Part shown: positions 15,962-39,938 of the stretch, piece after piece
Layout: each line of letters begins with the position of its first letter
Position numbering within the stretch: the stretch's first letter is position 1
Assembly (NCBI RefSeq): GCF_033958435.1
Contig: NC_134160.1
Span: 13,317,001-13,381,000, forward strand
Source of the DNA: Carettochelys insculpta
Lineage: Eukaryota; Chordata; Testudines; Carettochelyidae
Length of the DNA: 64,000 nt
Reading direction: 5' to 3'
Program-made: the position numbers and the translations under genes
Notes under the pieces: model-generated
What the model saw: the letters and a program-made list of their open reading frames with translations, nothing else
Databases searched by the model: none
What the model was told of the DNA's origin: nothing

Positions 15962-15973
15962 ATAACTGCTGAG

Positions 15974-16624
15974 CAGTCCTGTGGTGCTTTAGTGATTAAC
16001 AGATTTATTAGGTCATGAGTTTTCAGGGTAAAACCCACTTCTTCAGATGGGTGGAAATGCCATCCACAGAAGCTCATGATCTGTTTGCTAGTGTCAAAGT
16101 TAGACTCAAGACTCACAATTTGTCAGACCACTCTGTTTATTAGCAAAGCTGCTCTGCTAATACATTTAGAAAAGTGAGTCCCCTCCCAGGGCTCAGGTCT
16201 CTTAACTTATACAGATCAAGAAGGCAAGTTAATAGACAAAGGAAAAAAAGCCAGACACACACACACCCCATATAGTCCCTGAGACCAGTCACGTATCTTC
16301 ATTTCCATATCACCCTCAGCAATCCCCTGCCAATGACTCCCTGGGTACCTTAATTAATTACTGTCTAGCACCTACTGCTCTGCTTCCTGCTTCCCCAGGC
16401 ATACCTGGCTCCATCCAAACCCACCCTACATTCCTACACACAGTATCAACATAACTTTCCCTTCTTGAGCTCAGAAGTGACATTGTAGCATAGTGTGATT
16501 TAAGCTCTTTTTACAATGTAACTCTTTTATGTACAATGTCACATCTTATACTTCCACACTAGTCTCTAAGGTGCCCCAGGACTGCTAGTTTTTGAAGTTA
16601 TAGACTAACCTGGCTACCCGTCTG
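15974..16624. mobile_element. PLE tail fold-back insertion, split by a solo LTR
   Basis: The left part (15974-16091) is a PLE 3' tail on the minus strand, with AAACCCACTTCTTCAGATGG. The right part (16563-16624) is the end of the tail on the plus strand, with ATAGACTAACCTGGCTACCC. The flanks read ATAACTGCTGAG (15962-15973) and ATAACTACTGAG (16625-16636), a 12-bp duplication with one change. The LTR at 16092-16558 came later. Confidence 0.7.
16092..16558 (-). mobile_element. Solo LTR, class I endogenous-retrovirus type
   Basis: The 467-bp block begins TG and ends CA, and CTAG stands on both sides (16088-16091 and 16559-16562), a 4-bp duplication. On the minus strand there is a TATA-like TATAAGTTAAGAGA near 16215, an AATAAA near 16140 and a TG...ACA frame. 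A 4-bp duplication is usual for gammaretrovirus-like (ERV1) LTRs. No viral gene is present, so it is a recombination relic. It lies inside the PLE tail insertion and is younger than it. Confidence 0.78.
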
Positions 16625-16636
16625 ATAACTACTGAG

Positions 16637-17029
16637 GGCTTTGGCACTGGAATAACCTAGCTCAGAATCTGTCCAGACATGGGAGATTTGCCATTGATAT
16701 CACCAAACACCTGGCTTTGTGTGACACAGTTCTAATGATCATTTGCTCCAAGGACTACAACAGGCACATCTTCCATCACTGCCTACTTGCAACGATACTG
16801 CAGGCTCCTTAAAGAACAAACCAGTGAATCAGAAAGAAACCAAACTGGAGAGCTACTGTGGTGAACTGCTGCAGGGCCCATCTCCAAATGCTCACAACGG
16901 AGTCCTTCATGAGTTAGCCTCTCCTCCTCACCATCTTTTATTCTTAAATCTCTGCACTGCCGTCCCACCCTGACACAAGCTGATACTTTGCTTTACCCTG
17001 GCCAGAGCATCAGACTCTGCAGTGATGCT
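16637..17029. other. Stretch without a recognised gene
   Basis: Nothing recognised. Confidence 0.5.
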
Positions 17030-17190
17030 CCCAGTGAGGAGTGGAGGTTTTTAAGGCTTTTAAGTCCCAGCTTGATATAGTTCTGGCTGGGATCATTTAG
17101 ATGGAATTGATCCTGCTTTAGGGAGGGGGCTGAACTAGATGACATCCTGAGGTCCCTTCCAGACCTAGAATTCTATGATTCTATAAGGAG
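17030..17190 (+). repeat. CR1 LINE 3' end
   Basis: It has GGCTGGGATCATTTAGATGG, then GATGACATCCTGAGGTCCCT and the terminal ATTCTATGATTCTAT repeat, the standard CR1 3' terminus. It is truncated at 5'. Confidence 0.8.
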
Positions 17191-18018
17191 TAATCCCACT
17201 ACCTGCATTAAAAGCCTGAACTGAAATAAAATGTAGATCTGATTGCCGTCAGTCCTGTTCACAAGTTTAATGTCTCTTTGTACTGCCTGGAGGAGAATGG
17301 CAGGGCTGGGTCATAGCAACAGTGTTACTACTTTCGTTCCTTCTTCATGGCCAATGCCAAGTGAATTAGTGCTTTATATAATGGGTATTATGTAAATCAG
17401 ATGAGTGGAATGGCTGATAGATAAGTTGGTCCTCGTGATTGCCACCACCTATGGAGCTCTGGCAGAAGAATGTTAGATCCAAGGGGAAGATGAGATTAGA
17501 AGGGACTGGGCTTTCATTTCTGGAAATAAACAAGTAAATATTTTCTATGAACTGAAAATGTTATATTTTGTGTGGCAGAACTGGAAAACTTGTTACGGTT
17601 TTTGAGTGTGTTGCCCTGCCCCCAAGGTCCCACTTGGTACCTCCAGTGTGGGTTGTTTGTGCATTATCTCCAATTTATTCTGAGCAGAGGGTAGAAAATA
17701 TTCGGCAGTGTGAATTTTTTTTCCCTTCCCACTCATTTGTTCCAGTGCTCACAGGTAAAATGCTACCAGAAAGGCATGCAAAAAAATTCGACACCCCCCT
17801 GCCACCTTCATTCTGGAGGTGAAACAGAGTCTGGATGAGCTGTATATGAGTTTTACATGCAAGTTTTTTTGATATTCTCTTTGTTGTCCGTCTCTGAATT
17901 TTTAGTGATGCTCTTTGGAAGGGCAAGCTTTAAAAAAATCAAAGTGCTATAACTAACCAACCTTCAACTGCTAACGAGACGTTAGTACAACATGAGGCAA
18001 GGCCATCCTGTACATAGC

Positions 18019-18099
<81 letters not shown>

Positions 18100-19199
18100 T
18101 TGTTAATATGGATAATGTTTATTGCTATTACAAATACAGTGGTGTTTTTTTCTTTTTAATAAAAAATAATAAAAATGAAATTAAAAAAAAAGCAAGAAAT
18201 GCCAAAATCGCACTCATTTTGTCCTCACTGATGTCAGAAGACAGCGGCTTAAGAATGAGGGAAACTGCAGAAGAGCCTAATACTGTTTGGCATGTTTCAT
18301 TGACAAAGGTGACAGAGTGATTGCAGATCTCTGCTTAGCAGACAAGCAGAAGAGTCTTGTGTATTGGTGGGAACTGGTAAGAGGGATGCCAAGAGAGTGG
18401 CATTGCTAATGTGGTTTATACCACACATACGTGGCTGATCTTAACTTCCTTTTTTCTCTGGCATTCTTTTCTTTTGCGAAAAATAAGTTGCATAAATAAA
18501 TGTTCTAAATTTGTGATGGCCTCTGAGTCCTTCACTCGTTCCTGTTCATGATGCCTTCATGTGTTTGTCTCCAAGCCTTCCTTGTCCTCCTTGATGGGAA
18601 AGCTATGGCTATAGGGCACCACTCCCCAGACTTGACTATACAGCAATTGGCACCACGTGTGGTCCTGAGCCATGACTGGAGGGCTACTGCAATGCACATG
18701 ACTTTAATGTAGGCTTGGGGCAGGCAAGGTCTTCTTAGAAGTGGGGGCACTGGAGCAGCTTCCATCCAGCAATAATGCAAGGTTCATAAAATACTTTCTC
18801 AGGCTGAAGATTTTCATGCTTGATCTTAATACTAATTTACTGCTACAGACGGAGTAGCAGCTGCACTAGCTGCTAATGGTGTGCTTAGAGCTGTCACTTC
18901 ATCAGGCTAGCCTCACTGCTTACATTTACTGTGAGCATGGCAGAGGGAAGGATTATGATAAGACCCATAGGACCAAAAGTGCAAAAGATGGTAAGTCCAG
19001 TGGAGCTACACCAATTCACACCAGCTGGAGAGCTTGACCTTGACTACAGTACCTATGTTGATTTGCACCATCAAAGAGGAGTGGCAGGCAGGGATCAGGG
19101 AAGGTCTGGCCCAGGCCATTTTTACCAGGGTCATTTATGTTGCAAAGACTAATGCAGATCTTTAAAGATGAAAGGAAGAAAAGTTGGAAACGTTTCTGG
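17191..19199. other. Stretch without a gene; microsatellite and an old repeat
   Basis: Apart from the AT/AC microsatellite at 18022 and a worn palindromic fragment near 18985-19040 (GTGGAGCTACACCAATTCAC), I recognise nothing. Confidence 0.5.
18022..18097. repeat. Compound microsatellite (AT)n(AC)n
   Basis: About 15 AT units run directly into about 23 AC units. Confidence 0.95.
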
Positions 19200-19290
19200 A
19201 TCTGGATTCTCAATGGTATTTGGGTTTCTAACTCCCAGTGAAGTTAATTGGAGTTAGGAGCCTAAGGGTTTCTGGCTCTGGGCCTAGAGG
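19200..19290. repeat. Old palindromic repeat (TAACTCC...GGAGTTA)
   Basis: TTCTAACTCCCAGTGAAGTT and AATTGGAGTTAGGAGCCTAA form inverted halves. Similar worn fragments occur near 20175-20245, 53476-53540 and 59870-60350. This looks like an ancient amniote MITE type. Confidence 0.45.
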
Positions 19291-19545
19291 TACCAAACAC
19301 AATTATGGAGGCCGAGACATCTGAGGCACTTTCTTTGAGGGCAGGGCTTGGGCCACAAGCCTCTCCAGCAGTTTTACCTTCACTAACACAGAGCAGCTGC
19401 TTTCCTTAGCCAGATTCAAGAGTTCAGCTTTGTCCTGCAAACATCATTTAGGCATCTCCCCAGTTGCTAGGAGATAGCATTGGAGACTATTCTAATAGAG
19501 TTTAAAGTAAACCACAGTCAAGCTAGTTTGGAATGGAAGAGATCA

Positions 19546-20150
19546 GGGGTTGATTGACAGGTGTGTCGTGAACAAGACACGAGAAGTCATTCTTCCACTC
19601 TACTCCGCGCTGGTTAGGCCTCAGCTGGAGTATTGTGTCCAGTTCTGGGCACTGCAGTTCAGGAAGGATGTGGAGAAATTGGAGAGGGTCCAGAGGAGAG
19701 CAACGAGGATGATCAAAGGTCTAGAGAACATGACCTATGAAGAAAGGCTGAAAGAATTGGGCTTGTTTAGTTTGGAAAAGAGAAGATTGAGGGGGGACAT
19801 GATAGCGGTTTTCAAGTATCTAAAAGGGTGTCATAAGGAGGAGGGAGAAAACTTGTTCTTCTTGGCCTCTGAGGATAGAACAAGAAGCAATGGACTTAAA
19901 CTGCAGCAAGGGAGGTTTAGGTTGGACATTAGGAAAATGTTCCTAACTGTCAGGGTGGTCAAACAGTGGAATAAATTGCCAAGGGAGGTTGTAGAATCTC
20001 CATCGCTGGAAATATTTAAGAACAGGTTAGATAGATGTCTATCAGGGATGGTTTAGACAGTACTTGTTCCTGCCATGAGGGCAGAGGGCTGAACTTGATG
20101 GCCTCTTGAGGTCTCTTGCAGTCCTAGTATTCTATGATTCTATGATTCCT
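19546..20150 (+). mobile_element. CR1 LINE, 5'-truncated, well preserved
   Basis: The insertion starts inside the C-terminal part of ORF2. It ends with GATGGCCTCTTGAGGTCTCT followed by the ATTCTATGATTCTATGATTC terminal repeat near 20130-20148. The open frame through its stop and the clean 3' end suggest a fairly young copy. CR1 elements usually leave no target duplication. Confidence 0.88.
19550..20056 (+). pseudogene. CR1 ORF2 C-terminal fragment (168 codons)
   Basis: It contains '[17 protein letters not shown]', '[20 protein letters not shown]' and '[20 protein letters not shown]', then '[15 protein letters not shown]' and the ending 'LDRCLSGMV'. This is the conserved region downstream of the CR1 reverse transcriptase. 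The natural stop is present and the frame is unbroken, but the endonuclease and polymerase domains are missing. It cannot act alone. Confidence 0.88.
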
Positions 20151-21349
20151 TGCCCTGTATGCCCTTGGAGACACCCCTTAGTCTCAGATTCATAAGGTAT
20201 TTAGGAACCTAAAATCCACTGAATTCAGCTGGGTCTTGGCCCTTCAGTGTCCCCAGCTAGTACAATGGGCCTAATCATACCTCTTTCTCTAGGCAGGGAT
20301 GTGGGGGACTGTGTGTGAGGGTAAATACACCAAAGACTGTGAGGTGCCCAGATAGGGTGGGGATAGAGTGGTGAGGTGATGGTGGTACCTAGAATGGATA
20401 GAAGTTTGAACTTGCCCTGAGGCCTCTTATGCAGAGTGGGTGACACCCGGCAACAGTGATAGTGACACACAAATTCTTTTAATGCATTTCCCAGCTGGAC
20501 CATAAAACCCTACTGCGTGCATGAATGTCCCTGGATGAACATGCCTGCTTTGTTTGATGTGATTTATTTGTTACAAAGCTGCCTTCAGTTTAATGGGCTG
20601 CGATATTAAATACTTCCAGAGAATGTTGAGGCTTCATTTAAAGGAGCACAAGGAAAAAAAATTATAATTGAGTCGTTGGGATTGTTTTTCAGCTGTAATT
20701 AAGGCTTGTGAAGTATGCAGTAATTACATTTTGCCAATAAATAATAAAAAGGAGAATAATGCAAATTAAAATCAAGATCTCTATTTACAGAGGGCTGTAA
20801 CTGTGCGTATTGCCACTCAGGCTTAGTGCTGGCCCTGAGCCATGTTCCAGAAGGAATATAATTTCCCCAGGAGCTGGGACAACAAAAACCCACTACTCTT
20901 GGGTCTACAGCAAGATTTCTCTTTCATTCAGTTCTGTTGGACATAGATTCTTACTCCATGGTCGTCATTGTAATAGCTGACTCACAGCCACTCTCCTGCC
21001 ACTCAGTGTGACCGTGCAGCCTGAAGATCTAGCAGCCTCCCTGTTACCCGTCTGTGGGAGATGACTCAAAAGGAATCTGTGAACACAAGATGAATGTCCT
21101 CAACTATCACTGACATCAATAAGAACTGAACGTGCTCAGTCTCTTGGAAAACTAGGCTGAGGGGAGATACCTACACATAATGTGTTGTCCGCAATATTTG
21201 GTTGTCAGAGTGGAGGAGAGCCTACTACTGCTACAAGCTGACGGAGCTACCCCTGCAAGGACAAGGTGGGTGCTCTTCTGAAAGCTCTGCTATTGCTCAC
21301 ACAGACGTTAGGGACTCAATGCAGTAGGTGAGGCTATCTACCCTTTTTT
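20151..21349. other. Stretch without a gene; a candidate conserved non-coding block
   Basis: About 20540-20800 is AT-rich without being low-complexity. It carries TAATTA-type sites, an ATGCAAATTAA octamer-like site near 20759 and several TTTAAT cores, unlike the repeats around it. This is a possible regulatory element, by composition only. The rest of the stretch shows nothing. Confidence 0.3.
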
Positions 21350-21412
21350 GGGCAGGAAGTCAGACTGAGTGATCTTATTGGTTCATTCTGGCCTTACAAT
21401 CTCTGAACCATA
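21350..21412 (+). repeat. L3/CR1 LINE 3' tail
   Basis: GGAAGTCAGACTGAGTGATC followed by TTCTGGCCTTACAATCTCTG matches the L3/CR1 terminus. Confidence 0.6.
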
Positions 21413-22334
21413 ATACAGGTGATAGAGGTCTGAGCTGCTAACACAATAGGTTCTGGGTTCATTGGGACCATTCATGGCTTGACACATGAATGGGCCCTTA
21501 GGAGGGACTTCTAAGAATTTAGCCAGCTCAAACTTCATGGAATAAGACATTTCCGGTACCAGAAAGCCCGTGTGCTTCAGAGGGGGTTGAATGCAGGGGC
21601 AGCTGTACCAGTGGCCATGTTGTGTTGGAAGTTGGACCCTGCTCTTGTGCCTAGGTCACATGTACCTGTCATATTCATTTAGAGAGGCTAAACCGGGGGT
21701 GGGGGGGGTAACAACCTTTTTTTTTTTGCCCCTCCCATGCTATAAAAACTCCATGACCCACCTGTGGCAGACCCACTGGCTTTCTGCATATGAAAGCCTG
21801 AGCCTGCATTAGACCATTGCAACATTCTGAACAGGAAAGAGAGGGCCCACGAGCTGGGTGTCCATTCTTCAAACAACCTCCATCCAGCAGCAGAGCACAT
21901 GCTTAGGCTCAGCAAGGGTCATGTGGCCTGGTGAGACATGGCCTGACACGCAGAGGCATGGCGTGGGCAGACTGGCCACATGTGCCCTGACAGCTGGGGG
22001 TCAGAGGTACAATGGATGTAGCCCAGACGGTGAGTGCAAGGTTGTGTTGAGTAGGACAGGAGGCTGTCACAGTGTGGTGTGTAAGGGTGTGGTCTCTGCT
22101 AGCTAGTACCCATCAGCGGCTGCATAAGTGCCAACTGGACAAGCGCCAGTTATTCATGGTCACTGAGTGCACACCCAACCCTTTGCCTCTGAGCTCACCG
22201 CCAGCCTGTCCTGGATGCAACTGCAGCTCACTGACCCGGCAAAAGAGGGGAGGGGTGTAGAGCGAGGTGGAATGTTCCATATACTCAGAGAAATGCTGGC
22301 CTGGGAGTGGCCTTTGAGGCCAGGTCAAGTAAAC
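21413..22334. other. Stretch without a recognised gene
   Basis: A G run and a T run adjoin at 21700-21728. Nothing else is recognised. Confidence 0.5.
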
Positions 22335-22760
22335 CTAGACCATTCCTGAGATGTCTTTGTTCAATACAGTCTTAAAAAAAAAAACCTCTGGTGCTGCTGA
22401 CACCACAACCTCCCTTGGATGCCTGTTCCAGCACTTAGCTGCTCCACTTGTGTGATCGTTTTCCCTAAGCTCTCTGCTGAAGCCCATTGCGGCTTGTCCT
22501 CCCCTCAGTAACCTGGAGACCTCTTTATAACAATCCTGATCATATTTGAAAACTCTTGTCAGCTCCCCTCCTCACCCCTCTTGGGCTTCTTTTCTGAAGA
22601 CTGCACAAGCCCAGGGTCACAGCGTCCTGCTGAGGCCTCCCCAGTGCTGAGCAGAGTGGGCCAATTACCCCTTGCGTCTTACATACAGTATTTCGTTAAT
22701 ACACCCCAGAATATTAGCCCTTTTCACCGCTTGTTGGAGCAGCCACTGATGCATATGCTG
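22335..22760 (-). repeat. CR1 LINE, internally deleted 3' part
   Basis: The plus strand reads CCTAGACCATTCCTGAGATG, then CACAACCTCCCTTGGATGCC. Next come AAGCCCATTGCGGCTTGTCC and, after a gap in the usual order, ATACACCCCAGAATATTAGC. This is CR1 in reverse, with a middle segment missing and a short A run inserted near 22376. Confidence 0.7.
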
Positions 22761-24474
22761 TGTCCTAATTAGCAGAATACTCCTAGCAATGAGATGATCC
22801 TTTCCCCATTGACTGGGTGATTTAGAGCAATGGCCCATTGTGTAGTGTGTGGGTTTGTGTCTCCAGGGCTGTCTGTGTGGGTAGATTTGGAAAGAGCTGC
22901 CTTTCTGCAGCGCTACTCATGGTGCTGAGAATGGCACAGGGCCAGATGCAGCTATAAATGGGAGCTAGGTACCGACATGCATTTCAGGATCTGGGCCACA
23001 AGCTTGGCGCACACTGTCCAAATGTGCCTCATTCCTGAGCCTGCAGCAACCTCCTGCAATCCCAGTCATTCCCCTTGCCCTTGAGTGAGGACACTGCCTT
23101 TAATCCCTGCAGCAAGCCCTATTCTGCCTAACCCTACCAGTGCACCTCACTCATAGCCTGCAAATGCCTGCCGGGCCATCTGGCCTGCTCTCCCAGCTCT
23201 GGCTACAGTATAACCCGCTGCTCATTCTGAGCCAGGCCAAAGATGAGTGAGAATATAAGCCCTTAAAAAACAATGACAACGTAGCTGAAGAAAGCAGCAG
23301 AAAAGCACACTGCAGCCTGGAATCTCCATGGCACTGAAGGGGTTAAAGAAGTAGCCAGTGTCCCCCAGTGCTCATAGCTCAGGGGTTCACACTCTATCAT
23401 GTGCCAGACAAGGACCCTGGATATTGGCGCTCCCACTTCCAGGGCTGGAGTGATCCTTAGAGGGCTGTGCCCTGGCGCCTGGCATGTTGTCTCTCCCCTA
23501 GCTCCACCCACTCCCTGGAAGCCCTGCCCATGCACAGCTTCTTCCCCTTGAGGCCCTAGAAAGGAGACAGCAGCGGACGGGGCCAGCCTCAGGGCAGTGC
23601 ACTGGTAGCTTGTAAGGGTGGTGGGTTATGAGTGGGACCCTGTGTCATTGTAAACCTGGGACTGCCTGCTCCAGAGATTTGGTCTCTGGTCTGGAGTTCC
23701 AGGGTTAGCCCTCGTCCCTCAGGCGCTCTGGTTCACCAGGGGTTCTTTCCTCTCCTCATTGGTATTCTAAGGTGGGGACCTGGCTCATTGCTTGTAACAG
23801 AACCTGCCTGGGAAATTTGCATCTCAAATGTTAGAAGGAAGAAAAGGTGAAAAGCAGCTTCCTGGGACAGCTCCGCTAATGAGCTCCCGCTCGCCTCTTT
23901 TAATCTGAACCCGTCTTCCTGCCGTGGGCTTGAGTTCCATAACATTACAGGCACGCAGCCTCTGTATGTATACCAGAGCTAGCCTTAGGGAGAGAGGTGC
24001 ATTCAGCATGCTGGGCTCATCCAGACCCCTCCTCTCCCTGCAGCCCCTCCCGTCCTCCCCATAGCTGCAGAGACTCTGGCAAGATTCAAAGTAGAAAGCC
24101 AGGCTGGGCTAATTGTTATTGAGAGGAAGGGAGTCACAATAGATGGATTGCAGGTTAACAAGCCCCTACCCTACCCCAATATGTTCATTTTACTGTCTTC
24201 AAGGCGCATTTTCTCATTTTACAAGCAGCCCTTCCAAAGGCCATTTCCCACATCACCTGCAGGACAGTCTTAGACATGATGCCCTGGGCCCAGGAAAGTT
24301 TTGGCATTGACTTCTACAGGTCTGAGAGTTCACCTCTGGGGCCACCACAGAGATTGGTGGATTCACAAGCCAGAGCTGGAAACTTCACTGAGAGCTGTGT
24401 GGTGCAAACCCAGAGACACTGAGAAGAGAGAGTGAAGTCTCTGCTTTACAGTGTTATTTGAGAGCTATGTGGCT
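22761..24474. other. Stretch without a recognised gene
   Basis: No repeat or coding signal that I can name. Short conserved-looking patches near 23865-23900 cannot be judged without alignment. Confidence 0.5.
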
Positions 24475-24550
24475 TTTTAACTCATGTGGTAAAGCACAGG
24501 GCTTTAGCCCCTAAGGTTGCATGTTTAATCCCTCCTGTCGATGAGCTGTG
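24475..24550 (+). repeat. tRNA-derived SINE fragment
   Basis: AACTCATGTGGTAAAGCACA followed by AAGGTTGCATGTTTAATCCC resembles the A and B boxes of a tRNA-derived SINE in worn form. No tRNA fold is possible over the whole, so it is not a tRNA gene. Confidence 0.4.
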
Positions 24551-25795
24551 TCCATTGGTATTGTACCATGAAACGGTGGTTCACTCACACAAGGCACAGC
24601 TAATGACGCTGCTTTGTTTAGCTGCAAGGCTACCAGGGAACAGTCAGCGTCACACCCCACTTCCCCCCGGGCCACACATGGGGTGCACCTGGCCCCATCC
24701 AGGACCAGAACAGTGGTACTAACCTGAACCTCAAAGAGGTGGTGGATGCACTTTGAATGTTATTTCTCAAGGCAACCAGGTGTCTGGGGGATGAGGCAGG
24801 GCAAGAAACATCTTGGCCCCCTAGTACCAAAGCCAGAGGAAACTGTGGCATCAGTTACAGCGATGATCTCCCTGCCTCAGCAGGTCTTCACCGGGAAGGG
24901 GTCAGCAACAAGTAGTGCCTGAGAGCTGGAATCCCTGCACAGGCTACCTGTGTGCTGAGGGCTGTGGCTTTTCCCCATGAGCAAGCAGCTCACCCAGCCA
25001 GTGGGTTACATTGTCCTTCTCTTTGGCTGGGTTGTGGGTTCAAACAGTCCCGCCTCACGTTGGCAGCAATGGCTCCCATGGGGCAGAGTCAGTGAAAGGC
25101 ATGCAGTGAGCCCAGCTGCTCAGAGAGGAGGTCTTTGTCATTCTTCTTCCTGGTGACATTGCTGCTGCGGCTTGTTAAGCTGCAACTGTCACCAGCGGCT
25201 AATGATGAAGAAGCACTTTCCTCCACTTTTATGAAAGCAATAATTCCGTTCGCCTCCCAGTAATGAGGAGATAAAAGGCTGCTGCTTATCGGGGATGTTC
25301 CTGTGACACAAATACAAACAGCCACCCTTTTATGCACCATTAAAATAATAAATGATTGACTTGGGTTTTGTTGGGGTTTGCACAAATCGAGCTGCCATTG
25401 GGAGTCCATTAATGTCCAGGAGTGATTTACCTCCCTGGGCCGATGCAGAGGTTTCGCTGCCCCCCCCACCCCAGAGATGATTGTCTGGCAAAGTCACCAT
25501 GGGGATGGAAAACAAGTGTGTGGCTTGTAGCTAGGCCATAGGGATAGTGGGAGAATTCATTAAGATGGGGGCCGGGGGAAGCCATAGTTTGGGCTGGGAT
25601 TCATGGGTATTGTTTCCACCCAAACAGATAATGGTCTTGGACAAAAGTTGCAAAGCCAAGGGCCTTGCATTTGCCATCTCTGTTCACCAGGGACCTGATT
25701 TTTAAAAGGTGGTGACTTATCAAAGTCATCGGCCTCTGAAAAGGCTGGACAGACTTAGTGCTGGGCAGAGTTAGATCATAGTCCATTCCCTTTGG
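24551..25795. other. Stretch without a gene; a candidate conserved non-coding block
   Basis: About 25130-25375 contains closely spaced TAATGA, TTATGAAAGCAATAATTCC and ATTAAAATAATAAATGATTG segments in otherwise non-repetitive sequence. It could be a regulatory element, but this is composition only. The remainder shows nothing. Confidence 0.28.
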
Positions 25796-27375: not shown

Positions 27376-27387
27376 TTACACAGAGTA

Positions 27388-27625
27388 ACAGCAACGAAGG
27401 GTCCTGTGGCACCTTATAGACTAACAGAAATGTTTTGAGCATGAGCTTTCGTGAGCACAGACTCACTTCATCAGATGCTGGTCAGCATCAGAGACCAGCA
27501 TCTGATGAAGTGAGTCTGTGCTCACGAAAGCTCATGCTCAAAACTTTTCTGTTAGTCTATAAGGTGCTACAGGACCCTTCGTTGCTGTTACAGATCCAGA
27601 CTAACACGGCTACCCCTCTGATACT
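27388..27625. mobile_element. PLE tail fold-back insertion with a 12-bp target duplication
   Basis: Arms of about 100 bp (27388-27485 and 27492-27593) are almost exact inverted copies of a PLE tail, each with GTCTGTGCTCACGAAAGCTC. The plus-strand arm continues into CCAGACTAACACGGCTACCC and ends CTCTGATAC. TTACACAGAGTA stands on both sides (27376-27387 and 27626-27637). The arms meet at a centre of a few bases. Confidence 0.85.
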
Positions 27626-27729
27626 TTACACAGAGTAGGCACGCTTTAAGCTCACTAAAAAGCTCCTAGTATATTCATGGCCGCACTCTAACACCCTATT
27701 AAACACCTAGAAAGGGACAGAAAACCTGG

Positions 27730-29440: not shown

Positions 29441-30511
29441 GCTTATACTTATGAAACAAAGCTCTGTGTCATCCCATCTGTGTCATTTGAAGGATGATGG
29501 CAGGGAAGGACAATGTAGAGTTCATGCTCTCTTTTTAAGTCTCATTTTACTGGTTGGAGGACATGCCCTTCTCCACTTCTGTACACTGCTCTGAACAAGT
29601 GCCATTTAACACACACTTAGCAACAGCTATGACAGGTATTCATGATGGTATGTGCTACAGGACCATGGAGAATGGAGCTGCCACAGCTACAGTGCACATG
29701 CTACAGAGTGCTGATGCCCAGTCTTTCTAATGCAGGAAATGCTCAATAGTGATTTATTTAAACATCCGTAATGGTACTGTGAGCTTTAAATTGATAATGG
29801 CTCCTCCAAATGTTCAGTCAAAAGGCTTGATGGGAAGAGTTTGTATTTCAAAATAAATATTTCCACACAGTATACAAAATATCTAATCATGTATTTATCC
29901 TTAAGTACTTCTAAAAGTCAACATAATTATTCTAGTCCCATTAAATTTAATTTGTGGTAAATTATGCATTTAGCTTTAAGTTGAGGTTGCGATGCGGGTT
30001 AGATAAAGCTTTTGCTGTTTATCAAACAGCATTTCAGTCAGATATAAAATATACAAATGGGTTGGGGAAAAAACCCAGCGCAGACAATCTGGGGGCATTC
30101 CAGATAGTGAGTCTTTCAAAATCCACCCTAATGTAGTAATCTAATTTACGTACTCCCCAATTTCCAGTCATAATACTAATTGCATGGGTTTAACTGTCAA
30201 AAGAATTTGCCTACAGCCTGAAAATTTGGTTTTCCTGAACACAAAATTAGCAAACAAACAAACAAACAAACAAAACCAACCCACCAAATTACTTAACTAT
30301 ATGTTATCAACATCTCTGGACCCAGCGGCCAAGGATTCACAGTGCAAGTGGGAACACTGACTTTATCTGTGGACTATTTATGCTGTATGTCTAGTTGGAA
30401 TAGAGACTATCTATAGTTATCATGCCTCTTTTTACTGATTCAGTTCCAAAGTCCATTGAAATCGATGGAAAGACTTCTATTGATGTCAGTCACTTTTTGG
30501 TTGTACTGTCT
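29441..30511. other. Stretch without a gene; (CAAA)n at 30251-30275
   Basis: A CAAA tetranucleotide run is the only named feature. The rest shows nothing. Confidence 0.5.
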
Positions 30512-30790
30512 AGCTACATCTAAACCAGAGAGTTTTGCCGACAAAAGCCCTGTTTTGTCAACAAATCTTATGGAGCATCCACACTAAAACTATGTTCTGT
30601 TGACAGAACTCGGCGCTTTTGTCAACAGCATTCTGCCTCACCCTCATTCTCGACAGAATCTGTTGACAAAAAAGCTGTGTGGACTCATCAGGAAGCCCTG
30701 TCTGCCATGTTTCCCGATGGCTGGTCTGTCGAAAGAGCGGCCAGACAGCCCCTATTGTGCTTCTCACTGCACCCGGGAAGAGAGAGTCCC
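30512..30790. mobile_element. Harbinger-type MITE fragment
   Basis: It starts AGCTACATCTAAACCAGAG, a worn form of the GGCTACGTCTACAC end. GACAAAAGCCC and TTGTCAACA patches repeat inside in both directions. The right end was not found. Confidence 0.4.
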
Positions 30791-30999
30791 TTGATATCAA
30801 TAGTAGGGAATGGGGTTATTAGAGGATTGGATCTGTACTGCAGTGAGAGGCATAAATAACGTGGTTGGGTTCACTTTCCCTAGCAGAAGGAATTTGTGAC
30901 TCAGGCTCTTAGAAAAGTCATGTGTTAGCTTGCAAGCAGGAAGGCTGGCCATGCTGCTAAGGCATTTATGCAATACAGCTACACTGGGTACTTGACTCT

Positions 31000-31074
31000 G
31001 CTACAGAATCACTATGTGGTCTTAAGCAGGTTATTTAATTTCTCTATGCCTGACTTCATCATCTGTGACACATA
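31000..31074 (-). repeat. MIR-like SINE fragment cut by a Harbinger MITE
   Basis: CAGGTTATTTAATTTCTCTA followed by CTTCATCATCTGTGACA resembles a MIR-type SINE in reverse. The Harbinger MITE begins at 31075 inside it. Confidence 0.45.
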
Positions 31075-31784
31075 GGCTACGTCTACACGTGCACCCAACT
31101 TCGAAATAGCTTATTTCGATGTTGCGACATTGAAAAAGGCTATTTCGATGAATAACGTCTACACGTCCTCCAGGGCTGGCAACGTCGATGTTCAACTTCG
31201 ACGTTGCTCAGCCCAACATCGAAATAGGCACAGCGAGGGAACGTCTACACTCCAAATTAGCACACATCGAAATAAGGGAGCCAGGCACAGCTGCAGACAG
31301 GGTCACGGGGCGGACTCAACAGCAAGTCGCTCCCTTAAAGGGCCCCTCCCAGACACACTTTCATTAAACAGTGCAAGATACACAGAGCCAACAACTAGTT
31401 GCAGACCCTGTATATGCAGCACGGACCCCCAGCTGCAGCAGCAGCAGCCAGAAGCCCTGGGCTAAGGGCTGCTGCCCACGGTGACCACAGAGCCCCGCAA
31501 GGGCTGGAGAGAGAGTATCTCTCAACCCCCCAGCTGATGGCCGCCATGGAGGACCCCGCTATTTCGATGTTGCGGGACGCGGATCGTCTACACGTCCCTA
31601 CTTCGATGTTGAACGTCGAAGTAGGGCGCTATTCCCATCCCCTGATGGGGTTAGCGACTTCGACGTCTCGCCGCCTAACGTCGATTTCAACTTCGAAATA
31701 GCGCCCAACAAGTGTAGACGTGACGGGCGCTATTTCGAAGTTACTGCCGCTACTTCGAAGTAGCGTGCACGTGTAGACGCAGCC
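31075..31784 (+). mobile_element. Harbinger MITE family B, copy 1 (710 bp)
   Basis: The ends are GGCTACGTCTACACGTGCAC and its inverted partner GTGCACGTGTAGACGCAGCC. ATA is duplicated on both sides (31072-31074 and 31785-31787). The left 360 bp match the transposase end of the long element at 54563, including the TTAAAG promoter-like patch and the CAG run after the transposase start. The right 290 bp match its Myb end. Everything between is deleted. It is about 98.7 per cent identical to the copy at 43416 (nine differences counted by eye). Confidence 0.9.
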
Positions 31785-32019
31785 ATAGATTGTGACACGT
31801 TCCATCCCCAAGGCCAGGCTAGAGTGACCATGGGACTTCGTATGCAAAACACAGAACTTCTTTCTGCAAAGTGGCAAAGGCCCCACAGCTCGGTCCCTGT
31901 CTGACAAATGCAAATGCTGGCCTACTAATGGTGAGCTGGAGGTTACAGATGGGACTTGAAAGATCAGGTTGCATTCCTGGCTCTGTCACAGCCTCCTGCA
32001 TGACATTTGGTGCTAGCTA
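31785..32019. other. Short unique stretch
   Basis: Flank between the MITE and a MIR-like fragment. Nothing recognised. Confidence 0.5.
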
Positions 32020-32160
32020 CAAAATTGGTCTGGCCTCAGTTCCCCATCTGTACAATTGGAGGTAATAGTCTGTTCTGTGTTGTTCCCATATCTTGTCTGG
32101 GGCCAGGACTGTGTCTGCCCATATGCAGTGACTAGCACAGCGTGGTCATTCATTTGAGGC
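32020..32160 (-). repeat. MIR-like SINE fragment
   Basis: GGCCTCAGTTCCCCATCTGT and then GTGACTAGCACAGCGTGGTC, in reverse MIR order. Confidence 0.5.
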
Positions 32161-33121
32161 TTTTAGATTCCTTTAGATTGAGGAGCCTAAAGACAATGGA
32201 AAATGAATGATATTTGTTTTCCTGCATCACCTTAGATGCTTCAGAAAAGGGCCTCCTTTACTGCAATGAAATGGTTTCCACCTGATTAGATGCCAGGTGG
32301 GAGCTCCAGGGCTTGATCCCATGGGATCACTGAGGCAGACCCTCAGTTGGTGGGACTGAGCTCCCTGGAGTGTGTGGAGCTATGACCATTTACAGCAGCT
32401 GAAGAGCTATCCCAACATTTCATCTTGTGGCTGCTTAACCACAGTGAGAAATGTTTGTTGCCAAGCCCCAGAACTTTTAAGTACAAATTTTACTGAACAT
32501 TCCTTCTGGCTCTGCTGGACATTTAATGATGTTTTTGGTTTCTAATTTAGGTAGTGAAAAGAAATCCTTTCCTCTCAGCGCCTTCCTCCAGTCCAGATTG
32601 ACGGGCACCGTACCTTGTTATTCAGACTTCCACACCTCCTACTTTACATAGCTTACAAGGAAAGGTAAGCAGTCCTTCAGGGACGGCTTTGAATTCTGCT
32701 GGTGTGATTCCCATTTGCCTCAGTGCATTCTCACCATATAAGCCTGGTAGCAGAGCAATAATCTGTTAGTAAAACAGTGCACAAACTTGGATATCGTGGT
32801 CAAACTATGTTGGAACAGGCTATTGATTAAGCTTTCATCACACTTAAATGAATATTGTCAAAAAACAAAGAATGTTGAGTCATTCATCTGGCTTATATTT
32901 GGTCAGATACATACCCTGGTTTGAAGTGGAATCAGTCAACTAGGCATATTTGGGAGTTTGTTTTAATTTGAGTCTCTCAAAGCTTCTGATGGACTCTAAC
33001 ACTTGTAATCCAGAAAAATCCTTAAATCTAAATCAAAACAGTACAGGTGCTTGCCTGAAGGTGAGAGGGGTTGTGATGATTGTGGCAAAAAAGGGGGCTT
33101 GAGAAAGGACTGTAATCCAAA
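32161..33121. other. Stretch without a recognised gene
   Basis: Nothing recognised. Confidence 0.5.
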
Positions 33122-33129
33122 GTCTAGCA

Positions 33130-33458
33130 CAGGGGTCAGCAACCTTTCTGGGGCAGAGTGTCGAACTTTGACCTTTTGTCCTCTCCGTAGGTTCCAGGTG
33201 CTGGTGATACTTTTAGTTACTACTAGTCCTACTTACAACAGCTTCATTAATAAATAAGTTAAGATTCAGAGTTTTAACATTTAGGTGGCAGTTGGCACAG
33301 CATTAGCTGGTCTTTTGTTACTCCATAGGTGGCCTGGCTTTGAGCAAGCTCCTGGCTACATGGGGGAGGAGAGGTGAGGCTGAGCTCCTCCCTCACACGC
33401 CGATAAAAATTGGCTTGCATGCTGCTCTTGGCACCCGTGCTGGAGGTTGCTACCCCTG
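33130..33458. mobile_element. hAT MITE with an 8-bp target duplication
   Basis: The ends are CAGGGGTCAGCAACC and GGTTGCTACCCCTG, typical hAT ends (CAGGGGT). The flanks are GTCTAGCA (33122-33129) and CTCTAGCA (33459-33466), an 8-bp duplication with one change. The 329-bp body has no coding region. Confidence 0.82.
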
Positions 33459-33466
33459 CTCTAGCA

Positions 33467-35274
33467 TGAAACTGAGACCAGCTGACAGGACATATTCTCA
33501 GAAGGTGCAATTACCCCATTGACTTCAGTGGAGATGTGCTGATTTACACAACTGCAGTGTGTCCATCCTTGGAAGATTCTCAGGGATAGGTGAGCTGAGC
33601 ATTTTGCATCTTTCCTAGTGCAAGAATTGGTGTTTGGGGGTAATTAGGCCAATAAAGGTGGCCATATGTAGTCAAGTCCTGCCATTGAGAATTATTGCTA
33701 TTGGGCCATATCTGGAAGCTCTGATGCGAATAGTTACTCAGATCTTAGGAAAATTTACATTGTAGCCCATAGGCCAATGCCTTCCTTTCTATATCAATCT
33801 ATCCTTCTTTATGACGCACTCTTGTTTATACAGAATGGATACAGATATGTTGATAATACTATGGGATTTACAGCAAGGGTGCAGCCCTGAAAAGCGAGGC
33901 CAGTCAACCAATTATGTTAGGTAATAACTTCTGCTTAGATGAGGAAATCCTCTTGTTGAGCTTAAGTCACGGATTAAGGAAAGGCACCTTCTGTGCAGCC
34001 AATGGAGTTGTTCTTGATGATGCTGTCATTGGTCTTGGCCAAAAATAGAACAGAATGGGTGCTGCAGATGTGCTGTCAGCAATTCTGGTCCTTAGCAGAA
34101 CTGACAGAAGTGAAAATAGAACTCAAGGAATTCTGAAATTGCAGCTGCATATTCAAACAAAAGTTTGCTTAGGTGAAAATTATGAAGGAAATAGAGCGGT
34201 CTCTGAGTCGGAGACACCAGCAGCAAATCAGAATGTGCTACCTTCATTTCTGATCACTTTGCCCAGGCCTGTAAGGGGCTGGTTAAGAAATAATGTACTA
34301 CATCCTCCCTGGCATAAATCTGCTGGCTTCAGTACAGCTACAATGGGAACAAGACTGGCCTGCATAAAACCTGATTCTGGTCCCACATACAGCTGTCTAA
34401 ATCCACAGTAACTCCTGTGAGATACATGAGTGGGAACCCAATATAACCAAGAGCCTTGGTAGGGCTAAAGAGAGGCTTCATTGCTCAGACAAGCACTTAG
34501 CACCAGAGCACCATCAGCTACCAAGCTCCTCTGCCCCAGTTCTCACTCATTGCTTTGGACAGCATGGCCAGGAGACCACCCAAGACTGGCCTTCCTTTCC
34601 TGGAATGGGGTGCTCTCAGCAGAGACATTTCTCTGCCAGCGGCCTAAGCCACCTGCACAGCAAGAACCCTGCTGTTTGACAGGATGACCGTGTGCTTTGT
34701 TGAATACTTCCTTATACTTCTTTTAAACCGGCTGCTGATTAATTTCATTGGGTGACCCCAGCTGTGACATGTGCATGCCCCATCCCCTATCCAGACCCTC
34801 CTCACTCAACACTAAATGATGTGCTCTGAGCCTCAACCATTCACTCGTCTCTCCAGCACCCCCATTCTCTATCCTGAGTCCCCACGCCCAACCCCCTGTC
34901 CTTTTTGGACACTCATTTGTCCGTGCCAAACCCTGGAGAGAAAATAGCTGCCTCACCCCTAGGCTCCCAGGAAGCGTAATTGCAAAAACCAGGATCAGCC
35001 CTGATCTGCTTTAAATCACGAGACTATTTAGGAAGTGTTAGCGTATCCCTCTGCCCCCCAGCCCCACCACATAAATTTGAATCAGGTGTTTACTCACCTT
35101 AGCTCCAAACAGAGCTCTTAACTGCAACACAGCCGGAGGTTAACTCTACACTAGCTTGGAAGAGTGACTGGCTCAGAGTTGATTTTCCAGGGTTCAATGT
35201 TGTGCATCTTGTAGTGATGTGTGAAATCAATGTCTCAGGGGTTGCGGTTGAGCCCTGTACGCCTTGCAAGATGT
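33467..35274. other. Stretch without a recognised gene
   Basis: A worn palindromic patch (CATTGACTTCAGTGGAGATG) lies near 33520. C-rich wording near 34770-34900 recalls the C-rich tandem repeat at 42680. Nothing else. Confidence 0.45.
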
Positions 35275-35649
35275 GCGCTACATCTACACTTGCGCAAAAC
35301 TTCAAAATGGCCCTGCTGATGGCCAAATCGGAGAATACTAATGAGGTGCTGAAATGACTATTCAGTGCCTTGTTAGCATGCCAATGGCTGTGGCACTTCA
35401 ACAGTGCTGCATTTTGCTCGCACACTGCTCATCTACATGGGGGTCTTATGATAGGACTAAGGGGATATCAACATGCCCAGGGTGCTTTCGAAAAGGACCC
35501 CTGGGTAGACGACCTGCACATGAGTGAAACACAGCACTTTCGAAGTGCCACAGCCATCGGCATGCTAATGAGGCACTGAATATTCATTTCAGTGCCTCAT
35601 TAGTATTCTCCGATTTGTCCATTAGCTTTGCCCAAGTGTAGACACGGCC
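35275..35649. mobile_element. Old fold-back MITE related to family A
   Basis: It starts near CGCTACATCTACACTTG and ends CAAGTGTAGACACGGCC. The two halves are worn inverted copies with the AATGAGGCACTGAAT segment and its partner. The layout equals family A, but with many changes and a shorter length. Confidence 0.65.
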
Positions 35650-36302
35650 ATAAGGGAGGTTGCCTGGAGAAACTCTCCCAACAGCCTTCCTCAGGAAGGA
35701 CAGCCAAATAAACAAAGCACAGATACCTTGATTGCAGCTATGCCATTGCATAGCTAGAACTGCATATCTGCAGTCAACTTACTTTGCTGGTGTAGCTATA
35801 GCCTGTGAGCAATTACTTACAGGCTTAAGTATAGTTCACAGAACATATGTATCCAGGGCAAAGCAGACTGTGCTGTATAGTCGTTAACCATGTTAAGTGC
35901 TTATTATTGCTGTAACCCACCTCTGTGCTGCAGATGATTTATATGTGCTTTCTTTCTTATCCTGGGCAATTTGACTTTGTTTAGTTGTAAACATTCACTC
36001 AGTAAAACACCTTTTTTCTGTGGTATGCGGTGTGGTTCCTCGGGAGAATTTTCTGGAGGTTGGCTGGATGTCTGTAGGTTGATTAGATGATCCTGAAAGC
36101 ATTGTCAGGTGCTCCAGTCGAAAGATGGGAAACAAAGTGTGGGCTAACAGGAGACCGTCTGTGAGGGATTTTAAAGGCAGAAGTTAGGCATTGGGGAGGG
36201 AGGGTGGCTAGATACACAACATTCTTTAAACTTCTTTAAACTAGAACCCAAACCATCAGATTTTTTAAAAAATGGAATTTTCACAACAGTTTGGAAAAAG
36301 AG
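35650..36302. other. Stretch without a recognised gene
   Basis: Nothing recognised. Confidence 0.5.
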
Positions 36303-36657
36303 GCTGCTGAATTCTCTTTTATATTTGAATTTGACACATTAACACATGGTTTGAACTGGGATGGGAATTCTCTAGCTCATTATAGGGGCTCTTTGTATAC
36401 TTGGCTTTATCTAATTCTTGCCCCTCCCTTCTGCCCCTCTGCTCTCTGATTTGCTCACCTTGATAATATTTTTCTGATTTGTCAACCTTGATTATTATTT
36501 TTGGTTCTCTGTGCCTTAAATATTGAGTCTGTTTGGTGTGGCTATGGTCTAAAGAAGTGGGTCTGTCCCATGAAAGCTCATCATCTAATAAATTATTTAA
36601 AGTGCTACTGGACTGCTTTTTTGTTTTGATAGTGAATAGACTAGCACGGCTATCTCT
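36303..36657 (+). mobile_element. PLE 3' end with last coding part, 5'-truncated
   Basis: The first 110 bp encode a segment like 'TLTHGLNWDGNSLAHYRGS', matching the C-terminus of the PLE at 2618. Then come the tail GAAGTGGGTCTGTCCCATGA and the end AGACTAGCACGGCTATCTCT. A Harbinger MITE landed at its extreme 3' end, at TCT 36655-36657. Confidence 0.8.
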
Positions 36658-37353
36658 AGCCACGTCTACACGTGCCGGCTACTTCGAAGTAGCTGCGCCA
36701 ACTTCGAAATAGCTCCCGCCACGTCTACACGTGGCGAGCGCTATTTCGAAGTTGAAGTTGACATAAGGCAGCGAGACGCTGAAGTCACTATCCTCATGAG
36801 GAGATGGGAATAGCACCCTACTTCGAAATTGAATGTCTAAGTAGGGCAAGTGTAGCCGATCCATGTACCGCAACATCAAAATAGTGGGGTCCACCATGGC
36901 GGCCATCAGCCGAGGGGTTGAGAGATGCTCTCTCCAGCCCCTGCGGGGCTCTATGGTCACCGTGTGCAGCAGCCCTTAGCCCAGGGCTTCTGGCTGCTGC
37001 TGCTGCAGCTGGGGATCCATGCTGCATGCACAGGGTCTGCAACCAGCTGTCGGCTCTGTGGATCTTGTGCTGTTTAGTGCAACTGTGTCTGGGAGGGGCC
37101 CTTTAAGGGAGAGGCTTGCTGTTGAGTCCGCCCTGTGACCCTGTGTGCAGCTGTTCCTGGCACCCTTATTTCTGTGTGGGCTGCTTTGGTGTGTAGACAC
37201 TCCCCTGCAGCGCCTACTTTGATGTAGTGCTGCCCAACGTCGACGGCACCAGCCCTGGAGGATGTGTAGACGTTATTCATCGAAATAGCTTATTTCGATG
37301 TTGTTAAATCGAAATAAGCTATTTTGATGTAGCATTCGTGTGTAGATGTAGCT
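36658..37353 (-). mobile_element. Harbinger MITE family B, copy 3, older, reversed
   Basis: It has the same structure and deletion breakpoint as the copies at 31075 and 43416, but reversed and with many more changes. TCT is duplicated (36655-36657 and 37354-37356). Its counterpart of the transposase start codon and CAG run is still visible around 37005. Confidence 0.88.
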
Positions 37354-37365
37354 TCTCTGTTACTA

Positions 37366-38120
37366 TTCAGTAAATCACCAGGAACTGACAGTGTTTACCC
37401 AAGAGTTTTGTAATAACTTAAATGTGGAATTGCAGAACTAGTAACCTATCCTTTAAATCAGCTTCTATACCAAGTGACTAGATGATAGCTAATGTGACAA
37501 AAGTTTACAAAAAAAGAAGGCTTTAGAGGTGATCCTTGCAGTTACAAGCTGTTAAGTCTACCTTCAGTATTGGGTATATTGGTTGAAACTACAGTAAAGA
37601 ACAGAATTGTCAGACACAGAGATGAATGTAGGTTGTTGGGGAAAAAGTCAGCATGGTTTTTGTGAAGGGAAATTATGCCTCACCAATCTACTAGACTTCT
37701 CCAAGGGGGTGAGAAAGCATGAGGACAAGGGTAGTCCAATGGATACAGTGAATTTAGATGTCTAGAGAGCCTTTGACAGGATCCCTCACCAAAGGTCCCT
37801 CACCAATCCTCTCATGGATTGATAACTGGTTAAAAGATAAGAAAGATAGGGTAGGAATAAATGGTCGGTTTTCAGAATAGAGCTACATGAATAGCTGTGC
37901 TCTCCAGGAATCTGTTCTGTGACCAGTTCTGTTCTACGTATTCATAAATGATCTGGAGAAAGGTGTAAATGGTGAGACGGCAAAATTTGAAGATGACGAA
38001 GCCGCTCAAGATAGCTAAGTCCACAAAAGACTGTGAATAGCTTCAAAAGGATCTCATGAAACTAGGTGACTGGGCAACAAAATAGCAGATGGAATTCACT
38101 GTTGATAAATGCAAAGTAAT
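37366..38120 (+). pseudogene. CR1 LINE, reverse transcriptase region, no 3' end
   Basis: Segments in CR1 order include TTCAGTAAATCACCAGGAAC, AACTTGTAGGTT-like patches, GTACAGTGAATTTAGATG and GACAGGATCCCTCACC. Later come ATTCATAAATGATCTGGAG and AATGCAAAGTAATGCATATTGG. Stops and small gaps show it is dead. It breaks off where a PLE tail begins. Confidence 0.75.
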
Positions 38121-38125
38121 GCATA

Positions 38126-38310
38126 TTGGAAAGCGAAACAAAAAAACAGTCATGTAGCACTTTAAATACTAACAAAATAATTTAAGTGATGACCTGTTGT
38201 GGAACAGACCCAGTTCTTCAGATCTGGAAATTCTGATGAAAGTAAACTTGCACAAAGAGAATTTAACAGAAATATGGAAAAAATTAAATGAAATTGACAA
38301 CTCAGTTCCA
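38126..38310 (-). repeat. PLE 3' tail
   Basis: The plus strand reads ACAGTCATGTAGCACTTTAA, then GAACAGACCCAGTTCTTCAG, the reverse of the PLE tail wording. It directly follows the CR1 fragment. Confidence 0.65.
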
Positions 38311-38731
38311 TAGAACAGAAGGTGGGGGGAAGACAGGGAAGCAATTGATATTCACAGTCATCTCAGGCAAATCACTTAATAGACACTTCCCCAACTTACA
38401 CGGAGCTTGTCTTCTTGTGCAACCCCATGTAAGTCATATTTTGTATAACCTGGGGAGCCAGTGCTGGTCAGTTTCTCCACTCCTGTCACTGGCGGCAGCC
38501 AGTGGGAAACCGCTCCTGTTGGGGCGGCAGCCTGACTCTCTCCACCCCTGATAGGAGTGGGGTAGCAGCCTGACTCTCACTGCCCCAACAGGAGCAGGGA
38601 AACTGACAGCTCTCAGCTGCCGCCCTTGACACGAGTGAATGCCAGGCATCTGGTGCCATCTCTGGTCACTTTCCTGGCTCTCCTGAGAGGCAGGCAGCTG
38701 GGAGCCAGGCATGAGCTCCTTGCCACTCAGA
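38311..38731. other. Stretch without a recognised gene
   Basis: Short GGGGCAGCAGCCTGACTCTC-like repeats occur around 38520-38600. No gene is seen. Confidence 0.45.
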
Positions 38732-39168
38732 GGCTACGTCTACACTAGCCCCAAACTTTGAAATGGCCACGCAAATGGCCATTTCGAAGTTTACTAATGA
38801 AGCGCTGAAATGCATATTCAGCAGCTCATTAGCATGCGGGCGGCCACGGCACTTCGAAATAGACGCGGCTCGCCGCCCCACGGCTCGTACCAATGGGGCT
38901 TCTTTTCAAAAGGACCCCCACCTACTTCAAAGTCCCCTTATTCCCATGAGCTGATGGGAATAAGGGGACTTCGAAGTAGGCAGGGTCCTTTCGAAAAGGA
39001 GCCCCGTCGGGACAAGACGTGCGGTGGCGAGGGGCGTCAAGTTCGAAGTGCTGCGGCCGCCCACATGCTAATGAGGCGCTGAATATGTATTTCAGCACCT
39101 CATTAGTAAACTTCGAAATGGCCTTTTGAATGGCCATTTTGAAGTTTTTGGCTAGTGTAGACACGGCC
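38732..39168. mobile_element. Fold-back Harbinger MITE family A, full length
   Basis: 437 bp, centred near 38950, from GGCTACGTCTACACTAGCC to GGCTAGTGTAGACACGGCC. The arms match each other and the copy at 5582. The flanks do not show an exact 3-bp duplication, unlike the other full copies. Confidence 0.85.
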
Positions 39169-39218
39169 CCAAAGGGGGAAAAAGACCTAGGATATCATGG
39201 TATGTGGCAGGACTCTGT

Positions 39219-39538
39219 GGCTATGTCTACATGATGGGAGCTATTTTGGGATACAACAGTATCCCAAAATAGCCACCCCATGTCTATGCAATGTGCCTGT
39301 CATTTCAAAATATTTTTTTGAAATTATCGGCACGCTATTTCAACATCCTTGTACACCTCATAGCAGGAGGAGTAAGGGATGCCTTGAAATAGCACTTCAT
39401 TTTGCCATGTGGCCCTGTTTAGGCAGTGACACATGTCGAAATAGCCTATTTCAAAATTGACTCAAAATATGCTACACAATATGCACAGTGCAAACTGCAT
39501 AGTTTATTTTGAGTTTAGACTGTCGTGTAGCCTTAGCC
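39219..39538. mobile_element. Harbinger-type MITE, another subfamily
   Basis: It starts GGCTATGTCTACATGATGG and ends GTCGTGTAGCCTTAGCC. Inside are inverted patches such as GGGATACAACAGTATCCC and GAAATAGCCTATTTC. About 320 bp, no coding region. Confidence 0.6.
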
Positions 39539-39571
39539 TGGAAGGCCAAGAACACTGAATTTAAAAACTAA

Positions 39572-39926
39572 CAAGAACTCCTGTGGCACCTTGTAGACTC
39601 ACCTCCACATTAGCATCTGACAACGGGCCACATCCCCCCTGACTGAACTGACTTGTTTTCTCCTCTCTTGATGTTCATATTAACTGCCGATAATGGGCCA
39701 TTTCCACACTGGCTGAATAGACCTTTTCAGCGCTAGCCCTCCTCTTTACGGAGATCCCCTCTTTAAATCCTCCTCTGAACGCCCCCCCCCCCACCACATA
39801 TGCATCTGATGAAGTGGGTCTTTGCCCACAAAATCTTATGCTCCAAAATATCTGTTAGTCTATAAGTGCCACAGGACTTCTTGTTGTTTTTGAAGATACA
39901 GACTAACTTGGCTACCTCTCTGATAC
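39572..39926. mobile_element. PLE tail fold-back insertion with a perfect 12-bp target duplication
   Basis: TTTAAAAACTAA stands at 39560-39571 and again at 39927-39938. Inside, a short minus-strand tail (CTCCTGTGGCACCTTGTAGA) lies at the left. A plus-strand tail is at about 39800-39926 (GAAGTGGGTCTTTGCCCACA to the end CTCTGATAC). A unique filler of about 190 bp separates them. Confidence 0.82.
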
Positions 39927-39938
39927 TTTAAAAACTAA

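Follow-up and report, generated by a model that had tools for sequence, protein, structure and literature searches.

Head-to-head pseudo-LTR insertions of a Penelope-like element with near-constant 12-bp target duplications in the turtle Carettochelys insculpta

Results

A 64,000-nucleotide stretch of the Carettochelys insculpta genome (the window; NC_134160.1, positions 13,317,001 to 13,381,000 of assembly GCF_033958435.1) contains three short insertions, near 16, 27 and 39 kb, that derive from a Penelope-like element (PLE). All three are head-to-head pairs of PLE pseudo-long terminal repeats (pLTRs), with a minus-strand left arm, a plus-strand right arm and flanking 12-bp duplications of the target. 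The arms are unequal in every case, the left arm lacking the terminal ~36 bp of its partner (the tail). Insertion as a fold-back of this kind with a near-12-bp duplication is general in this genome and occurs well beyond chance. The insertions are probably products of two-ended target-primed reverse transcription of a PLE pLTR piece by a dimeric reverse transcriptase (RT)-endonuclease.

Further copies were sought in the species' own assembly (2.18 Gb, 134 contigs). In each genome search the best 40 of 195-1456 candidates were scored, and the samples lean to young copies. With the whole 27-kb insertion as query, the best 40 of 601 candidates all matched on both strands (40/40) at 88-100% identity. 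This result is biased because the query is itself a fold-back, and two further queries were therefore added, the tail alone and a sequence shared by both arms that excludes the tail (the tail-blind query). The 107 loci recovered for the 27-kb type (L009-L115) represent 88 distinct insertions after removal of repeats of one insertion. These comprise 14 short singles, 10 long insertions that extend past the fetched stretch at their other end, and 64 fold-backs, bearing out the expectation of the first-pass annotation of the window that many short inverted copies would be found at different loci. No second arm was seen within the fetched stretch in 24 of the 88. Two loci about 23 kb apart, L044 (C1:4047772-4049015) and L045 (C1:4024807-4026050), hold the same fold-back in matching flanks, and this insertion was therefore copied by segmental duplication.

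The coding capacity of the long copies points to the identity of the element. An RVT_1 domain (E 4.1e-8) was detected in the reading frame upstream of the pLTR in L071, and a GIY-YIG domain (E 1.7e-5) upstream of the pLTR in L057. Judged by these domain matches directly upstream of the pLTR, the body of the long copies is that of a Penelope-like element; the window insertions themselves are non-coding. Inspection of the 5' parts of three long copies revealed an inverted tail-less pLTR within the fetched 3.2 kb in L138 (upstream of L115, long tail-ended copy), an architecture like that of rotifer PLEs, and weaker or partial matches in the other two.

The target duplications were scored against mismatched pairs of left and right flanks. 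A score of at least 9 was obtained for 52 of the 64 fold-backs and 22 of 3766 mismatched pairs, and a score of at least 11 for 45 of the 64 and 2 of 3766, respectively. Among the first 40 fold-back loci, all from the 27-kb query, 38 scored at least 9, as compared with 37 of 1934 shuffled pairs. The choice of boundary affects the score, L035 scoring 3 or 9 and L038 scoring 8 or 14 in two scorings. The duplication was perfect in 47 fold-backs, with lengths of 9 bp (4 cases), 10 bp (1), 11 bp (5), 12 bp (22), 13 bp (12) and 14 bp (3). The counts at 12, 13 and 14 bp fit a true length of 12 bp with chance extension (expected 20.8, 10.4 and 5.8). The stagger, which the first-pass annotation took to be fixed at 12 bp, is thus near-constant. 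Duplications were also found at short singles, 9 of the 14 scoring at least 9. Four of the singles have duplications of 11 or 12 bp (L050, L059, L088 and L096), and two have duplications of 17 and 24 bp, the 24-bp one imperfect.

The two arms of a fold-back start in two separate zones of the pLTR, in which coordinate 1 is the G of GACCAGCATCTG. Among the 52 duplication-bearing fold-backs, the starts span 125-139 for right arms and, but for one at 61, 88-102 for left arms, placing the RNA start points of the two arms ~36 nt apart. The core zones, 128-139 and 92-102, hold for 51 of the 52, allowing for a few starts at 88-89 and 125. A tail-bearing arm is paired with a tail-less arm in 21 of the 22 fold-backs that the tail-blind query recovered, an arrangement in keeping with canonical endonuclease-positive PLEs, in which the pLTRs are inverted or tandem and one of them may carry a tail of 30-40 bp; both arms of the remaining fold-back lack the tail. 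Of the 18 insertions from the same query in which no second arm is visible, 11 have the tail and 7 do not. In the wider set from all non-fold-back queries one arm of each kind was found in 22 of 26, together with one tail/tail pair, one tail-less/tail-less pair and two unclear cases. In line with what has been published for an Anolis PLE (PMC11167929), the sequence annotated as a PLE 3' tail is better taken as an internal site of RT initiation close to the 5' end of the RNA. In L070, a fold-back flanked by a 13-bp duplication, the left arm begins at coordinate 61, a possible third RT start site.

Fold-backs with duplications are not confined to one subfamily, as had been proposed, since smaller samples of two other families also contain them. 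In the 39-kb-type family the window copy and 20 fetched copies were compared; 15 of these 21 have an opposite-strand arm, which starts at 84-93 in 11. A score of at least 8 was obtained for 14 of 23 copies of this family (including the 16-kb and 40.9-kb window copies) and for 65 of 2195 shuffles; the duplications are often mismatched, and the copies are therefore older. In a sister family an inverted arm was found in 6 of 14 fetched copies; the scores of four of the six range from 9 to 13, the maximum among shuffles being 8.

That the 12-bp words are true duplications, as the first-pass annotation held, is supported by three unoccupied sites. Alignment of joined flanks showed that the word is present once in paralogous repeat copies (L025/L073, L090/L100 and L096/L083), these being diverged paralogues (69-81% identity) and not orthologous alleles. 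The flanks of L109 were also compared with L073 and with window positions 37611-37968, but both paralogues are deleted at the insertion site and are hence uninformative.

Target preference was analyzed where the duplication is perfect and 12 bp long, namely in 23 insertions (22 fold-backs and one single). The base preceding the word is C in 21 of the 23 and the base following it is G in 14; G occupies position -4 in 11, and C occupies position +17 in 14. The word has an AT content of 71%, as compared with 56% for the near flanks. When the half-sites were folded about the centre (n = 46), the outer positions showed G at +1 in 35, A/T at +2 in 37, A/T at +4 in 35 and C at +5 in 25. Words of 13 bp, in free register, are preceded by C in 10 of 12 cases and followed by G in 9 of 12. 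Outside the discovery set, 14 of 17 insertions have G after the word, where 5.7 would be expected, and 10 have C before it, where the expectation is 6.4, so that the right side is better confirmed there than the left; these 17 were hand-picked for a legible duplication, and several permit more than one 12-bp register. The target thus appears dyad-like, with loose symmetry. Read as a cutting pattern, the base preferences suggest that both nicks fall just 5' of a G, 12 bp apart, leaving protruding 3' ends.

The point at which the sequence turns from one arm into the other differs from copy to copy, as do the arm lengths. Junctions are blunt or have 1-nt overlaps or longer palindromic overlaps (L060 and L073), and some contain filler that copies nearby letters (window positions 27484-27492, L013, L033 and L090). 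The inverted structure that was first described as fixed is therefore variable in turn point and arm length, and it is not visible in every insertion. The inner ends, or heads, of the arms cluster near coordinate 1. Eight of the 14 short singles have heads at 1-8, and heads at 0-8 are found in 16 of 61 arms outside the fold-back query. This clustering, together with TATTTATA, which begins at -28, suggests that coordinate 1, 28 bp after the start of that sequence, is the probable RNA 5' end.

On re-reading the sequence, the coordinates and 12-bp words of the three window insertions in the first-pass annotation proved correct. Its description of each as two PLE 3' tails holds insofar as two pLTR arms are opposed, but the left arm is without the tail in all three. 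The 16-kb insertion lies between copies of the word ATAACT(G/A)CTGAG at 15962..15973 (ATAACTGCTGAG) and 16625..16636 (ATAACTACTGAG). Its tail-less left arm (15974..16049, minus strand) was recognized as a reverse match to the plus-strand arms of the 39-kb and 40.9-kb copies. The tail-bearing right arm (plus strand) is split into an inner part at ~16062-16091 and an outer part at 16559..16624 by a later, non-PLE solo LTR-like insertion (16092..16558, TGTCAAAG..TTCCACA), which was identified by reading the sequence and which has its own CTAG duplication (16088-16091 and 16559-16562). The PLE fold-back so interrupted is roughly 190 bp long.

The 27-kb insertion is flanked by TTACACAGAGTA at 27376..27387 and 27626..27637. 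Sequence matching placed its tail-less arm at 27388..27483 (minus strand) and its tail-bearing arm at 27493..27625 (plus strand), the tail-less start point falling near 27584-27590 and the tail running to 27624/27625. Between the heads of the two putative cDNAs is the filler AGCATCAGA (27484..27492). The 39-kb insertion, flanked by TTTAAAAACTAA at 39560..39571 and 39927..39938, is asymmetric, with a tail-less left arm of only about 31-43 bp (39572..39602, minus strand) and a much longer tail-bearing right arm (39603..39926, plus strand) that extends into the upstream pLTR.

The window also contains four PLE pLTR pieces that the first-pass annotation does not list, at 2618-2704, 36548-36660, 38149-38227 and 40841-40957, which derive from the same or the sister family; the tail of the last, the 40.9-kb copy, occupies 40873-40957. 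The first three belong to the sister family, which has the tail-less end AAACAAAAAAGCAGTCC and forms fold-backs elsewhere in the genome too. The letters CTGATGA..GAAA at 27502..27529 (plus strand) resemble by eye the core of a hammerhead ribozyme, a motif of canonical PLE pLTRs; Rfam searches gave no hammerhead match. The fold-back hairpin at 27447-27529 matched several Rfam microRNA families with scores that are below the gathering thresholds and reflect the hairpin. Fold-back insertions such as this one could be mistaken for microRNA precursors.

Discussion

In the mechanism that we favor, a dimeric RT-endonuclease would nick both strands of a loosely dyad-symmetric target 12 bp apart, providing 3' ends on both sides. 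One 3' end would prime cDNA synthesis at the outer RNA start site, giving the tail arm, and the other would prime at the inner start site, ~36 nt nearer the 5' end of the RNA, giving the tail-less arm. Both cDNAs would run toward, and often halt near, the probable RNA 5' end at coordinate 1. Their 3' ends would then be joined head to head through a short stretch of homology or none, sometimes with added filler, and fill-in of the 12-nt overhangs would produce the 12-bp duplication. The first-pass annotation had suggested inversion during synthesis from both nicks. Synthesis from both nicks is retained here as the simplest account, at the level of a proposed mechanism, but a LINE-1-like inversion of a single cDNA is contradicted by the two start zones, ~36 nt apart on the RNA, and by the individual turn point of each copy. 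Two-ended priming would account for the commonness of short mirror-image copies. A more specific version, which we put forward tentatively, is that a symmetric PLE-endonuclease dimer sits on a C^N12^G dyad (outer sides weakly GWNWC) and nicks 5' of G, 12 bp apart, the better half-site priming the tail-site cDNA and its partner the inner-site cDNA on the same RNA, with each start used once per insertion. If so, the tail, a long-standing puzzle of PLE ends, would mark which strand was primed by which subunit.

Several observations weigh against two-ended priming. Sampling was restricted to the best-scoring copies, and for 12 of the 64 fold-backs no duplication reaching a score of 9 was found with the boundaries chosen. 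L055, the sole tail/tail fold-back, and L092, the sole tail-less/tail-less one, belong to these 12. In the available text on the PLE of Anolis carolinensis (PAc), cuts made in vitro prefer 5'-ATT, unlike the dyad found here, and no start-site difference between strands was seen (PMC11167929). In addition, the heads of the two arms agree more often than expected of independent cDNAs, lying within 5 nt of each other in 42 of 60 fold-backs (22.7 permuted), in 11 of 22 of a less biased set (2.3 permuted) and in 8 of 19 outside the presumed start (1.6 permuted). These comparisons use the 60 of 64 fold-backs with a gap of at most 60, and the head pair of L012 is inflated by a palindromic overlap. 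The excess speaks for a shared template, for palindromic joining or for snap-back. In snap-back, priming at the tail site would yield a single cDNA that folds back on its own 3' end and copies itself, after which the hairpin end would be attached across the break. Self-priming on an antisense template has been proposed for rotifer PLEs in the accessible text of PMC3846280. Palindromic or near-palindromic turns in L060, L073, L074 and L082 would also be expected from snap-back, as would the sharing of minor alleles between the arms of an insertion (fraction 0.158, as compared with 0.032 and at most 0.072 when permuted), although this sharing is also compatible with one RNA copied twice or with a common source. 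Nevertheless, we consider snap-back rather unlikely. The copied-back arm should reach the same outer end or scattered ends, and nearly all end at 92-102. The tail arm should reach at least as far upstream as its partner, yet the tail-less arm extends further in 26 of 60 fold-backs and the tail arm in 5 (29 being within 2 nt); most of the 26 came from the fold-back query, and the less biased set gives 9 versus 2 (P 0.065). Heads are more than 5 nt apart in 18 of the 60 and in 11 of 22 of the less biased set. Two-ended priming with one start site per nick is favored because snap-back predicts no fixed tail-less end.

The fold-back might instead be a short non-autonomous unit that replicates itself, as a hairpin RNA or a foldback- or MITE (miniature inverted-repeat transposable element)-like DNA transposon, and passes on its structure. 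The uniformly inverted best 40 places found with the 27-kb query are what such a unit predicts, as are rare alleles common to both arms, but that query was itself a fold-back, and the rare alleles divide into 10 shared and 166 not shared. Turn points and filler vary between copies, the outer ends are offset and unequal, and the duplication length is shared by single and asymmetric copies, making an inherited unit very improbable. A foldback or MITE DNA transposon in particular was rejected, as it needs equal inherited terminal inverted repeats and the ends here are unequal by ~36 bp with varying turns. Still less credible are two successive independent insertions at one hot site or recombination between single copies. 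PLEs are abundant enough to give such encounters some weight (the 195-1456 first-look candidates per query), but a single 12-bp duplication lies outside the pair and none was seen between the arms, and the two start types are combined in 21 of 22 pairs, a regularity not expected of chance neighbors.

How PLEs integrate is debated. In the accessible texts, the authors of the work on Adineta vaga PLEs favored self-priming, possibly on an antisense template (PMC3846280), and the work on PAc describes two-strand cutting and internal starts in vitro, with later steps unverified (PMC11167929). The hundreds of natural products in one genome constitute a readable footprint of stagger, start site per strand, junction and target preference, so that the two-ended model can be tested directly, by mining genomes and with an existing purified enzyme.

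The element resembles PAc, a Poseidon PLE, which, according to the available text of PMC11167929, encodes an RT and GIY-YIG protein, has pLTRs, cuts and extends both strands, and starts reverse transcription at two adjacent internal sites that bound a 30-40-nt tail. A dimer is predicted for PAc, and we propose one likewise. The PAc start lies about 111-118 nt into its open reading frame, a distance that, by our own count from the ATG of CTGATGA, falls near the outer start here; the start region is within the reading frame in PAc, whereas it has no open frame in the turtle-type copies that were read. The terms "duplication" and "stagger" were not found in the accessible text of that paper (PMC11167929). 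Pen2a_Av and other Penelope elements of Adineta vaga also have an inverted pLTR head to head with the direct one and 37 bp shorter than it, and they share with the turtle copies an optional tail on one inverted pLTR, palindromes at the inverted junction and target duplication, according to the available part of PMC3846280. They differ in that few copies are described there and the duplications are of 8, 9 or 10 bp or absent.

Within the open literature (the early Penelope papers, in subscription journals, lie outside this scope) we found no report of a 12-bp PLE duplication, stagger or target dyad. Inverted pLTRs with one tail are already published, and the constant 12 bp and the target dyad are apparently new. 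Also new is the pairing, in the tail-blind fold-backs, of one arm from the tail site with another from ~36 nt inside it, with turn points that vary. In twin priming of LINE-1, as in the mechanism favored here, two primings at staggered nicks generate an inverted segment. However, LINE-1 primes at poly(A) and leaves duplications of variable length, whereas the starts in the turtle insertions fall in two fixed zones and the duplication is nearly constant at 12 bp.

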